In this document: one piece after another, positions 10,301-20,988 of the stretch
Layout of the letters: each line of letters starts with the position of its first letter
Numbering within the stretch: position 1 is the stretch's first letter
DNA from: Gelidibacter salicanalis
GTDB lineage: Bacteria; Bacteroidota; Bacteroidia; Flavobacteriales; Flavobacteriaceae
Direction: 5' to 3'
NCBI RefSeq assembly: GCF_016469035.1
Contig: NZ_JAEHJZ010000038.1
Location: 12,180-71,990 of the forward strand
Length of the DNA: 59,811 bases
Notes under the pieces: generated by a model
Database searches by the model: none
What the model was told of the DNA's origin: nothing
The model's input: the letters and a program-made list of their open reading frames with translations, nothing else
Position numbers and translations under genes: made by a program

Positions 10301-12394
10301 ATGAACCATCCAAAACGCTATACCATTACCGCCGCATTACCTTACACTAATGGACCCATCCACATTGGCCATTTGGCTGGGGTGTATGTACCTGCAGATA
10401 TTTATGCCCGTTATTTAAGACTTATTGGAAAGGATGTCGCATTTATCTGCGGAAGCGATGAACACGGTGTGCCTATTACTATAAAAGCAAAAAAAGAAGG
10501 CGTCACCCCTCAAGATATTGTGGATAAATACCACGCCATCATCAAAACATCTTTTGAGGATTTTGGAATCAGTTTTGACAACTATTCACGCACTTCTGCA
10601 AAAATCCATCATGACACGGCCCAAGAATTTTTCAAAACCTTGTACAACAAAGGTGAATTTATTGAGGAAGTTACCGAACAACTCTATGATGCTGAAGCCG
10701 ATCAGTTTTTAGCCGATCGTTTTGTAACGGGAACCTGTCCTAAATGCGGAAATGAAGAAGCCTATGGCGACCAATGTGAAAAATGTGGAAGCAGTTTGAA
10801 TGCTACGGATTTGATCAATCCAAAATCGGCAATTACCGGCAACGTTCCCACTTTAAAACAAACCAAGCACTGGTTTTTGCCTTTAGACAAGCACGAAGCG
10901 TTTTTAAAAGAATGGATTTTAGAAGGTCATAAAAAGGATTGGAAACCCAATGTTTACGGACAAGTCAAATCTTGGATTGACGATGGCTTACGCCCAAGGG
11001 CAGTCACTAGAGATTTGGATTGGGGGATTCCTGTACCAATTGAAGGCGCTGATGGAAAAGTGTTGTATGTGTGGTTTGATGCGCCTATTGGCTACATCTC
11101 CTCTACCAAGGAATGGGCCGATCGGGTTGGCAAAGATTGGGAACCCTATTGGAAAGACAAAGACACCAAGTTGGTGCATTTTATAGGGAAAGACAATATT
11201 GTATTTCACTGTATTATTTTTCCAGCCATGTTAAAAGCAGAAGGTTCTTATATTTTACCAGATAATGTACCTGCCAACGAGTTCTTGAATTTAGAAGGCA
11301 ACAAATTGTCTACCTCAAAAAACTGGGCGGTTTGGTTGCCGGAATATTTAGAGGAATTTCCAAATCAGCAGGATGTATTGCGCTATGCCTTAACGGCAAA
11401 TGCGCCTGAAACTAAGGATAATGATTTTACTTGGAAAGATTTCCAAGCCCGAAATAATAACGAGTTGGTGGCCATTTTTGGCAATTTCATCAATCGCGTG
11501 GTAGTGTTGACCGACAAATACTATGGTGGTGTAGTTCCTGAAGCTTCAGAATTTAGCGACGTAGATCAGGACACCTTAGCGGCTTTAAAGGCCTACCCAG
11601 ACGTGATTGCCAGTTCTATTGAACGCTACAGATTTAGGGAAGCGAGTCAGGAATTGCTAAACTTAGCTCGAATGGGCAATAAATATTTGGCCGATGAAGA
11701 ACCGTGGAAATTGGTAAAAACAGATGAAGTCCGTACCAAAACCATCATGTTTGTTGCCCTTCAAATAGCTTCTGCCTTAGCAACCTTAAGTGAACCGTTT
11801 TTACCATTTACGTCTGATAAATTAAAATCAATCCTCGGGATCAACTCAAGTGATGCAATTCAGGAAAATCTTATGAATAATTCATGGAATGATATTTCAT
11901 CAAAAGATGTATTGCTTCCTACCGGACATCAAATTGGAAAAGCAGAATTGTTATTTTCAAAAATTGAAGACGACACCATTCAACAACAATTAGACAAACT
12001 GGTGGCCAGCAAAAAAGCAAACGAAGTGGCGAATAGAAAAGTAGAACCTCAAAAAGAAACCATCACCTTTGAAGATTTTTCAAAATTGGATATGCGTGTG
12101 GGGACCATTATTGAGGCAGAAAAAATGCCAAAAGCGAATAAGTTATTGGTATTAAAAGTGGACACAGGTATTGATGTACGCACCATTGTTTCAGGAATTG
12201 CAGAAAGTTTTACCGCGGAAGAAGTGATTGGAAAACGCGTAACGGTGCTGGTCAATTTGGCACCAAGAGCCTTGAGAGGCGTTGAAAGTGAAGGCATGAT
12301 TTTAATGACAGAAGCTGAAGACGGGAAACTGGTATTTGTAAATCCTGATACCACAACAGGCGCAAAAGTGCCTAACGGATTGCAAATAAGTTAA
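10301..12394 (+). CDS. metG: Methionyl-tRNA synthetase
   Basis: Charges tRNA-Met with methionine. The product is 697 residues. The class I signature HIGH is at residues 21-24, the zinc knuckle ([18 protein letters not shown]) near residues 145-162, and the KMSKS equivalent is KLSTSK near 335-340. The C-terminal 110 residues form the Trbp111-like OB-fold tRNA-binding domain ([20 protein letters not shown]), which marks the homodimeric type. The ATG at 10301 ([19 protein letters not shown]) is chosen because the in-frame sequence before it is promoter and repeat. A roughly 100-base leader carries two palindromes that could affect expression. Confidence 0.97.
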
Positions 12395-19412: not shown

Positions 19413-19506
19413 TGTGCAAATAAAATAATCCTCATGTGAAAGTTGCGGAATTTAATAAATTCTAGAATTGATTTTTTTTACTCTGATACTGCTTGATAAT
19501 TTTGGA

Positions 19507-20403
19507 TTATCTCCAGAGATCTTCAGATTCCCAATTACTCGGAAAGCCCATTGCTGCCGTATCGATGTTAGGATATTCGGCTAATAATTCTTTAAACCTA
19601 AAAACTAAACTATTCTGCGGATTTATTGTTTGCATCAAAAATAACATCATTGACAATATGAAAAAGACTTTTTTATTACTTACTTGAGAATCATCTATCC
19701 AACATTTTGATGTGTTTTGAGGTTTAATAGGCTGTATACTCATTGTTCGATTCCACAATCTGGAATGATGAGCACAAACATTTCTCAAATAAACTATACT
19801 GTGCATCCAAGAAGCAAATGTCTTATCATTCAAACCGAAATGATTTGAAATCATTCTCTTTGTTCTTCCGCCCTTCAAATTACTATATAAAAAAGACATG
19901 GTTCCAAATGATGTTATTTCTAACATCATCCAACTTGGTGGTAATGCATTTGAATATTTCATTTGAAAAGCTTCAATAAATTCCTCATCACTTCGCTGAT
20001 ATTCATTTTGCAAACTTCCAAGAGTTTTACTATGTCTAATGTGGTTTTTAAAAAGATTGGAATCTTGATACCAAAAAGCCCCATATTCATGAGACAGAAT
20101 ATAAATCATTTTAGCCCTTAATGAAACCTCGATTTTCTCGAGTTCTCTTAAGATTAAAATTCTAAGTTTTCTATCAAAACAATATATATCAAATGCATTT
20201 TGAAAGGTAGAACCTTCTTTAAAGAAATGATTTGATTTATCTATCAGCATAGGGTACCAATAGCCACTTAATCTATAATAACTTATACTTTCTAATAAGT
20301 GATGTGCTCTTGGAATATTTGTAATAATTAATCCTCGATCTTGTAATTGAGAGATTTGTTGTGAATAAGTTAGGGCAGGTTTATTATATGAAGATAATGA
20401 CAT
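19507..20403 (-). CDS. Abi_2 family (AbiD/AbiF) HEPN abortive-infection protein
   Basis: 298 residues with the Abi_2 hallmarks: N-terminal KPALTYSQQISQLQDRGLII, the SISYYRLSGYWYPM block near residue 41, YCFDRKLRILILRELEKIE near 74, and the C-terminal RNVCAHHSRLWNR near residue 208. The last is the R-x4-6-H motif of HEPN ribonucleases, so the protein is predicted to cut RNA. AbiD and AbiF of Lactococcus abort phage infection; related Abi_2 proteins have been described as toxins held by a neighbouring structured RNA and as relatives of the ancestors of Cas13 (from memory). The leader here fits that scheme: its own promoter, a short hairpin RNA and a U-tract end immediately at the ATG. The gene is isolated among housekeeping genes, with lower GC than they have, which suggests acquisition. 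Confidence 0.9.
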   Translation of the reverse strand: MSLSSYNKPALTYSQQISQLQDRGLIITNIPRAHHLLESISYYRLSGYWYPMLIDKSNHFFKEGSTFQNAFDIYCFDRKLRILILRELEKIEVSLRAKMIYILSHEYGAFWYQDSNLFKNHIRHSKTLGSLQNEYQRSDEEFIEAFQMKYSNALPPSWMMLEITSFGTMSFLYSNLKGGRTKRMISNHFGLNDKTFASWMHSIVYLRNVCAHHSRLWNRTMSIQPIKPQNTSKCWIDDSQVSNKKVFFILSMMLFLMQTINPQNSLVFRFKELLAEYPNIDTAAMGFPSNWESEDLWR

Positions 20404-20463
20404 AAAAAGTAAAAAGCTTACCCTGAGCGCGCTGATCTAAACGGGAAGCGGGGTAAGCATGTT
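20404..20463 (-). ncRNA. Candidate abiF-type small RNA (possible RNA antitoxin)
   Basis: Transcribed on the minus strand just before the Abi_2 gene. A perfect 8-bp stem pairs GCTTACCC (20458-20451) with GGGTAAGC (20423-20416). The 27-base interior can form an inner stem (CGCT with AGCG) and leaves CCCG and GCGCTC segments free for tertiary pairing. The stem is followed directly by a T-rich tract (TTTTTACTTTTT) typical of an intrinsic terminator, and then the ATG at 20403. With the promoter at 20468-20495 it would be a transcript of about 50-60 nucleotides. Position and shape agree with the abiF RNA motif described next to Abi_2 genes; I recall that motif but could not compare it. Confidence 0.65.
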
Positions 20464-20467
20464 AAGA

Positions 20468-20495
20468 CAAAAATACAAAATATTTTTAATATCAA
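20468..20495 (-). promoter_or_regulatory. Flavobacterial promoter driving the small RNA/Abi_2 unit
   Basis: On the minus strand a TTG (20495-20493), 17 bases, then TATTTTTG (20475-20468), a full match to TTG-N17-23-TAnnTTTG. A start a few bases on falls right before the hairpin. Confidence 0.7.
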
Positions 20496-20586
20496 CAATT
20501 GTTCTGTCTACAAACTGTGCATCAATATGATGAAAACAATAGACTAAATTCATATTAATAGATAAATTAGTGAGCCATAGTTAGAA

Positions 20587-20632
20587 AATAAATCCCAAAA
20601 CTCCAATCGGTTAAAATTGGGATTTGGGATTA
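20587..20632 (-). terminator. Terminator downstream of ssb
   Basis: On the minus strand AATCCCAAA pairs with TTTTGGGATT, enclosing a second hairpin (CCAAT with ATTGG), followed by TTTATTTT. Confidence 0.65.
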
Positions 20633-20652
20633 TTAGTATTTGGGAGTTTTGG

Positions 20653-20988
20653 CTATTTGCTACCTAACATCATCAATTCATTACAGACAATCTCTGTGAT
20701 ATAGCGTTTTTCACCTTCTTTGGTTTCATAGCTACGGGAGGTTAATTTCCCTTCTATGGCTACTTCTTTCCCTTTGGTCAAATAACTTTCAACGATTTTC
20801 GCGGTGGCTCCCCAGGCCACAACATTGTGCCATTGGGTGTCCGTTACTTTTTCGCCTTTGGCATTCTTGTAATTCTCATTCGTAGCGATGGAGAATTTCG
20901 CCAATGTTTTTCCTGATTCAAGATTGATGATTTCAGGGTCGTTTCCTAGATTACCAATCAACTGTACTTTGTTTCTTAATGTGCTCAT
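20653..20988 (-). CDS. ssb: Short single-stranded DNA-binding protein
   Basis: A single OB-fold of 111 residues: NKVQLIGNLGNDPEI at the start, then FSIATNENY, TQWHNVVAWGATAKI and YLTKGKEVAIEGKLTSRSY, all typical of bacterial SSB. It ends at NELMMLGSK and so lacks the glycine-rich linker and acidic tip (DDDIPF) by which the main SSB recruits repair and replication proteins. It is thus probably a second, accessory SSB for recombination or natural DNA uptake, with the full-length SSB elsewhere. It is followed by a terminator and diverges from the methyltransferase gene. Confidence 0.92.
   Translation of the reverse strand: MSTLRNKVQLIGNLGNDPEIINLESGKTLAKFSIATNENYKNAKGEKVTDTQWHNVVAWGATAKIVESYLTKGKEVAIEGKLTSRSYETKEGEKRYITEIVCNELMMLGSK

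Follow-up and report, generated by a model that had tools for sequence, protein, structure and literature searches.

An AbiF-type protein–RNA locus in Gelidibacter salicanalis, a candidate toxin–antitoxin unit, and stand-alone AbiF-family RNAs in phages

Two described AbiF–RNA pairs are the closest points of comparison for the locus reported here. In C. difficile, the Abi_2 HEPN toxin AbiF_Cd is paired with RCd22, an upstream RNA that both attenuates toxin expression and neutralises the toxin (PMC12373285). RCd22 is produced in excess and the toxin mRNA arises by read-through (PMC12373285), while experiments described in the same source indicate that the RNA antitoxin acts in cis and in trans by direct binding (PMC12373285). 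The second pair, PbAbiF–AbiFr, is attributed to Zilberzwige-Tal et al. (cited in PMC12373285); a PbAbiF variant carrying R210A and H215A is inactive (PMC12373285), and structure 8VZ6 contains PbAbiF with its ncRNA (PMC12737573), in a source that describes AbiF as the root of Cas13 (PMC12737573).

The window, meaning the whole analysed stretch of 59,811 nucleotides from G. salicanalis (NZ_JAEHJZ010000038.1, positions 12,180 to 71,990), carries a comparable unit on its minus strand. At its upstream end, TTG (20495-20493) is followed after 17 bases by TATTTTTG (20475-20468), and we take this arrangement (20468..20495) to be promoter-like by comparison with the Bacteroidota promoter consensus. Downstream is an AbiF-family leader RNA of subtype A, a putative antitoxin (20408..20465), delimited by the covariance model R1 and by covariation. 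Its outer stem, evident in the sequence and from covariation, pairs GCTTACCC (20451..20458) with GGGTAAGC (20416..20423) and encloses 27 bases. Within these, an upstream scan, the sequence and covariation identify an inner stem of CGCT (20447..20450) and AGCG (20430..20433), which closes an apical loop of 13 bases seen in the sequence and the alignment (TCCCGTTTAGATC, 20434..20446). Alignment to the model places the 3' internal loop CGCTCA (20424..20429) at the position equivalent to CAAAUC of Rfam family RF03085. A T-rich tract, TTTTTACTTTTT (20404..20415), leads directly into the ATG at 20403 of a gene for a 298-aa AbiF/Abi_2 HEPN protein (19507..20403), with the motif R207xxxxH212 (RNVCAH). 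The preliminary description of this DNA had located the promoter-like site, the 8-bp stem around 27 bases, the T-rich tract, the ATG, the 298-residue reading frame and RNVCAHH correctly on the minus strand; its account of the hairpin stands for the outer stem, but overlooked the inner stem CGCT/AGCG. Judged by eye, the outer stem and TTTTTACTTTTT probably form an intrinsic terminator or attenuator. The hairpin is missing from the output of a terminator scan because that scan accepts loops of 3-8 bases only and is therefore blind to one of 27.

Abi_2 is the sole Pfam family on the 298-aa reading frame, and residues 35-218 span the complete PF07751 profile (1-184/184) with 199.6 bits against a cut-off of 25.6 (E 7.4e-59). 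PADLOC calls the protein AbiD (1.3e-80), and an NCBIfam search of it returned no match. Among solved structures, 8vz6_A ('Abi family protein', E 1.6e-66) is alone in matching at E ≤ 1, with an alignment over the whole length (query 6-298 on chain 7-300) that sets RNVCAH (R207/H212), the one HEPN RxxxxH motif noted in the window protein, on RNSCCH of 8vz6_A. The Pfam and 8vz6_A matches bear out the earlier identification of an Abi_2/HEPN protein, which is intact and has a putative role as an RNase.

Folding of the single sequence gives weak evidence for the hairpin (z -1.67, with 14/200 shuffles folding equally well). The two-stem form lies 0.7 kcal/mol above the MFE fold, whose inner part pairs otherwise, and inner-stem pairing probabilities are 0.31-0.34. 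The structure is therefore settled by comparison, through covarying stems and a match to R1, a covariance model built from 23 subtype B sequences (13 AbiF-adjacent and 10 from viral contigs) with the window sequence excluded. R1 matches 20408-20465 on the minus strand at 35.6 bits (E 4.7e-7, 465,562 bases searched). This is its one match in the window, so the tandem antitoxin repeats used as a criterion for type III systems are absent. An abiF covariance-model search, proposed in the preliminary description as a check, came back empty: RF03085 is absent from the whole window at the Rfam gathering threshold (37 bits), and from 20350-20660 (311 bases) even at E ≤ 10, where six other families appear weakly. 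The window RNA thus falls below the Rfam abiF threshold, yet has the same layout as RF03085, with an outer stem, one 5' unpaired base, a short inner stem and a 6-base 3' internal loop; it differs in its sub-gathering score and in the letters of the loop and internal loop. In the broader sense it is an AbiF-type leader RNA, having covarying outer and inner stems and a 3' internal loop upstream of an AbiF gene.

Searches with the window protein gave matches in 17 of 149 related genomes and in 49 of 395 genomes of its phylum (taken as Bacteroidota). Upstream regions were scanned for 42 of 46 fetched loci, omitting four with short or weak matches (L014, L016-L018), and a two-stem hairpin precedes the AbiF gene in 40 of the 42; L006, L011 and L030 are counted through R1 and not the scanner, and L044 is a loose case, the least clear. 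The two loci with no RNA upstream, L013 and L015, encode remote homologues (27-28% identity). A conserved stem before homologous genes, whose absence the preliminary description had named as grounds for rejection, is thus present and covaries. Sequence resembling TANNTTTG lies upstream of the RNA in a number of these loci. The outer arms change from GCTTACC/GGTAAGC in the window to ACACACC/GGTGTGT, ACTTGCC/GGCAAGT and ACCTGCC/GGCAGGT, whereas the inner stem, loop and 3' internal loop are nearly invariant inside each subtype. Elsewhere in the set, an additional hairpin or insert widens the loop in L006, L030 and L031 with both stems kept, L045 (822-877, 1402-1457) and L046 (832-887, 1402-1457) have two R1 RNAs 525-515 bases apart ahead of a single AbiF gene, and L023 holds two divergent AbiF units, the second truncated by the locus end.

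An initial MAFFT alignment of all subtypes misplaced the 3' arms of the outer stem by one column between subtypes A and B, and R1 was for this reason built from subtype B alone and used to align the rest. In the resulting alignment of 72 R1 matches (62 distinct rows, aligned by fitting to the model, with five weak matches), each of the five covariation measures lies beyond every shuffle; there are 100 double-change cells against 28.7 in shuffled alignments (0/500 as high) and at most 13 in slid controls. Most of this covariation is in the outer stem, with little in the inner stem, where 2/4 pairs show a double change. A separate MAFFT alignment, A2 (13 AbiF-linked and 10 viral rows), gave 30 double-change cells against 9.3 (0/500), while its counts of pairs with a double change and of further pair types fell within the shuffles (388 and 43 of 500). 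Across the 395 genomes, 36 of 68 R1 RNAs lie directly upstream of an AbiF match (-11 to 111 nt), and 29 of 42 AbiF matches of at least 600 bases have an R1 RNA. Five of the remaining 13 were inspected, revealing subtype C in four and the looser hairpin of L044.

Three RNA subtypes can be told apart by their letters. The window's own subtype A reads CCGCTTCCC..AGAWCAGCG-CGCTCA, subtype B reads ACGCTWCCC..GAACAGCG-TNCCAG, and subtype C (CAAGCCTC..GCTCAAATC) is RF03085 of Rfam. Locus L012 bridges them, aligning to RF03085 on all 37 positions at 23.5 bits, under the cut-off of 37. A tree was made of 51 of the 100 AbiF proteins collected; placed on it, the labels A, B, C and none require 6 changes against 27.0 in shuffles, and the 13 subtype A rows make up one side of a branch. 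RNA subtype tracks the protein tree, which points to joint diversification of RNA and protein, as expected of partners. The RNA subtypes outside the reach of RF03085 extend the known AbiF protein–RNA family.

The source of PbAbiF was first sought in 65 genomes of one genus, where the best match had 43% identity; the locus is that of uncultured Prevotellaceae bacterium RUG178 (L158), at 100% over 294 aa. It runs from a promoter-like TATCTTTG through one RNA of subtype C (RF03085, 58.5 bits, one match) and a T-tract to the gene. PbAbiF and the window share full-length protein homology, the RxxxxH motif, a single RNA motif that separates the promoter-like site from the gene, and a two-stem RNA with a 3' internal loop. 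They differ in the RNA itself, which in the window is CCGCUUCCC..AGCG-CGCUCA and missed by RF03085, and in PbAbiF the canonical CAAGCCUC..GCUCAAAU. Since the PbAbiF locus likewise has one motif, the flavobacterial version is not special in being 'minimal', as had been supposed. The pair from C. difficile resembles the window in joining an Abi_2 HEPN protein to an upstream RNA, but in RCd22 there are two motifs and the terminator is a separate element (PMC12373285), whereas the window has one motif with its outer stem abutting the T-tract.

Comparison within the genus shows that the unit is housed in a stretch of 1,240 bases (19413..20652) between an HDAC-like gene and ssb. This gap measures 70-83 bases in 5/9 other genomes of the genus and 290 and 320 in two, while in two more ssb was not seen in the stretch examined. 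Because the gap is short in most of these genomes, the AbiF unit resembles a cassette acquired at an otherwise empty site. The window ssb itself (20653-20988, minus strand) shares only 58-60% identity with its counterparts in eight related loci. Those eight are 87-99% identical to one another, and the window gene therefore looks to have been replaced; a relative's ssb searched against the window's genome finds the same gene as its best match (59%). In the relative L002, AbiF flanks an ssb on the opposite side.

AbiF-type RNAs also occur apart from AbiF genes. Of the 68 R1 RNAs in the 395 genomes, 32 have no AbiF match next to them, and the RNA is therefore not strictly tied to the gene. Some of these unlinked RNAs sit at contig ends or beside AbiF remnants (L085, L279), and gene-free RNA arises in bacteria too, perhaps by decay. 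A restriction, NACHT or DarT gene lies near 5 of the 10 unlinked bacterial loci checked; no shared downstream effector emerged among the unlinked loci inspected, whose neighbours are mixed, comprising HSDR (twice), NACHT, DarT, DNA methylase, AAA_14/DUF4143, HTH or proteins of no family. Seven R1 RNAs with no AbiF match nearby (L081, L086, L264, L275, L276, L281 and L283) lie near HigBA-like, metallo-protease-like, HSDR, NACHT, DNA methylase or DarT genes.

When IMG/VR was scanned with exact patterns, 86 viral contigs were recovered (L047-L074, L093-L150), with subtype A in 4, B in 61 and C in 21. Abi_2 is encoded in 2/86 of the whole records (2/28, 0/50 and 0/8); a record may be a fragment, but ten Abi_2-free ones span 121-226 kb; viral contigs searched with the window protein gave nothing. 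Three contigs (L048, L049 and L050) carry the window's subtype A with no Abi_2. Twenty proteins were tried as indicators of phage nature, five of which had no family, and they revealed terminase genes in L050, L051, L059 and L068 and a DNA polymerase in L052. The closest named phages for which a host is recorded infect Flavobacterium (L051, L050), Nonlabens/Persicivirga (L066) or Cellulophaga (L048), at 24-48% identity, the terminase of L050 being 48% identical to that of Flavobacterium phages; for L051 and L048 the best matches are environmental phages with no host given. With near-identical contigs left unmerged, 30/84 orphan RNAs lie directly beside a same-strand tRNA gene, against 1.03 expected from tRNA density. 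Among the tRNA-adjacent orphans, 29 follow a tRNA gene (most commonly Thr-UGU, 14, and Met, 7) and two precede one, while L050, L059 and L103, among others, have a promoter-like TANNTTTG instead of a tRNA. The subtype B pattern leaves the outer stem free apart from one base, and pairing of this stem was examined in type B orphans at 60 loci, of which 59 are uncut and which comprise 38 distinct RNAs with 27 distinct arm pairs; 175/189 positions pair, against 129.8 (sd 4.0) with shuffled arms, and none of 10,000 shuffles reached this value.

Nineteen regions of named phages were inspected, 17 from blastn matches to subtype C or related queries, together with one Vibrio phage and S-CREM1, the latter by its published accession. 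RF03085 reaches its cut-off in nine (L236, L237, L239, L245-L249, L254): Acj61 (58.0 bits), S-SZBM1 (55.7), S-CREM1 (52.2), CRP-143 (50.8), T7-Ah (50.7), PZL-Ah8 (50.1), CGphi29 (50.1), S-SRM01 (49.3) and Baka (39.7). SNW-1 (33.3), phiSHEF4 (31.1), Pasto (30.3) and SBSphiJ (25.2) score below it. The family is unlisted at E ≤ 5 in P59, phiNIT1, phiAGATE, Lactobacillus P1, Mel-JY01 and Vibrio 1.118.A; a similar hairpin is visible by eye in the first four, and the last two, with no such RNA, were dismissed as chance blastn matches. Blastn of subtype B against named phages yielded none that was confirmed, one search being matchless; matches to six Vibrio phages were judged to be chance from the one inspected, and a further match, to faecal phage MT838967.1, was weak. 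In S-CREM1, S-SZBM1 and S-SRM01 the RNA ends 4-5 bases upstream of a tRNA gene, and the P59 hairpin lies inside a stretch of 15 tRNA genes; in the other six phages above the cut-off no tRNA gene directly adjoins the RNA. A search of 17 named records, the nine above the cut-off among them, found Abi_2 in none. The 'skipping-rope' RNA (RF02924) also occurs within phage tRNA arrays (L238 2427-2496, L240 2205-2275), in P59 just before the AbiF-like hairpin, and tRNA arrays may carry several non-coding passengers.

For the window locus, we favour an AbiF-type protein–RNA toxin–antitoxin unit of type III mechanism, in which the RNA would hold the HEPN RNase off, with a probability of roughly 0.8. 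One promoter would give an RNA of ~55-60 nt, most transcripts ending at the outer stem and U-tract to leave the RNA in excess, while occasional read-through would supply toxin mRNA with its ATG immediately downstream; the order of promoter-like site, single hairpin with T-tract and ATG suggests as much. Through its loop and 3' internal loop the RNA would bind AbiF and restrain the HEPN RNase, a mechanism we infer from homology and from the conservation of both loops. Phage infection, by halting host transcription or destroying the RNA, would then free AbiF to cut RNA and arrest the cell. The single window RNA is thus probably both attenuator and antitoxin. The preliminary description had proposed that the RNA neutralises or guides the protein: experiments on a relative (PMC12373285) and the description of PbAbiF (PMC12737573) lend weight to the former, and the guiding role found no support.

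A leader placed directly before the ATG and followed by a T-tract could also be just a cis regulator, working like that of AbiD1 as an attenuator or translation switch and not binding the protein, and AbiD1 mRNA is indeed controlled via its 5' region (PMC12373285). We consider this unlikely, as the letters of the loop and internal loop are conserved within a subtype beyond the needs of a plain attenuator, RNA subtype follows the protein, and the RNA persists in phage records with no Abi_2 gene. A role as guide or scaffold in Cas13-like RNA-guided cutting might be entertained given the description of AbiF as a Cas13 ancestor (PMC12737573), but is very improbable for an RNA of ~56 nt in which almost every part belongs to a conserved stem, loop or internal loop and no variable stretch is long enough to act as a guide. 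Least credible is a chance hairpin or generic terminator before an ordinary single-gene Abi: the single-sequence z of only -1.67 would fit, whereas covariation and model matches across loci contradict it.

For the phage-borne copies, we lean, by a small measure, towards the view that stand-alone AbiF antitoxin RNAs, often adjacent to tRNA genes, serve phages of several host phyla as RNA-based counter-defence. During infection the phage RNA would replace the decaying antitoxin of the host and so keep AbiF from aborting the infection, and tRNA-processing enzymes may help to excise tRNA-adjacent copies. Phage-borne defence RNAs with no defence protein have precedents in pseudo-ToxI of phage PhiTE, which established the principle for ToxIN (PMC3475682), and in Racr anti-CRISPRs, which did so for CRISPR (PMC10651486); the present case differs in its protein families and in that AbiF-type RNA occurs in many phages, partly within tRNA arrays, its role being putative. 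It is also possible, if rather doubtful, that the phage RNAs were left behind by AbiF genes since lost, or have some other phage function that leaves host AbiF untouched. Decay would agree with the AbiF remnants beside unlinked bacterial RNAs in L085 and L279, and with six subtype C viral copies (L131, L137, L139, L143, L144 and L149) that match RF03085 positions 3-34 alone, their outer stem being shortened. It is harder to reconcile with the pairing of type B orphan outer stems far above the shuffled value and with the lack of Abi_2 in 84/86 viral records; the orphans also retain a loop and internal loop of AbiF type, though the search patterns required them, so this is not independent. An earlier report notes a single abiF sRNA in the cyanophage S-CREM1 and counts three members from phages in Rfam, but proposes no mechanism (PMC9964418). 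Our literature search, whose coverage of subscription papers was thin, found no proposal of phage-borne AbiF RNAs as counter-defence, and such a remark may exist.

If the counter-defence reading is true, these RNAs would represent a counter-defence that is natural, widespread and made of RNA alone, directed at a HEPN abortive-infection toxin, and phage tRNA arrays would have a further use. What may surprise specialists is the orphan RNAs of phages, partly tied to tRNA genes. The scattered remark of an 'abiF RNA' in a phage would become a testable rule, namely that the antitoxin RNA of a host suicide system may be found in phage genomes, often next to their tRNA genes.
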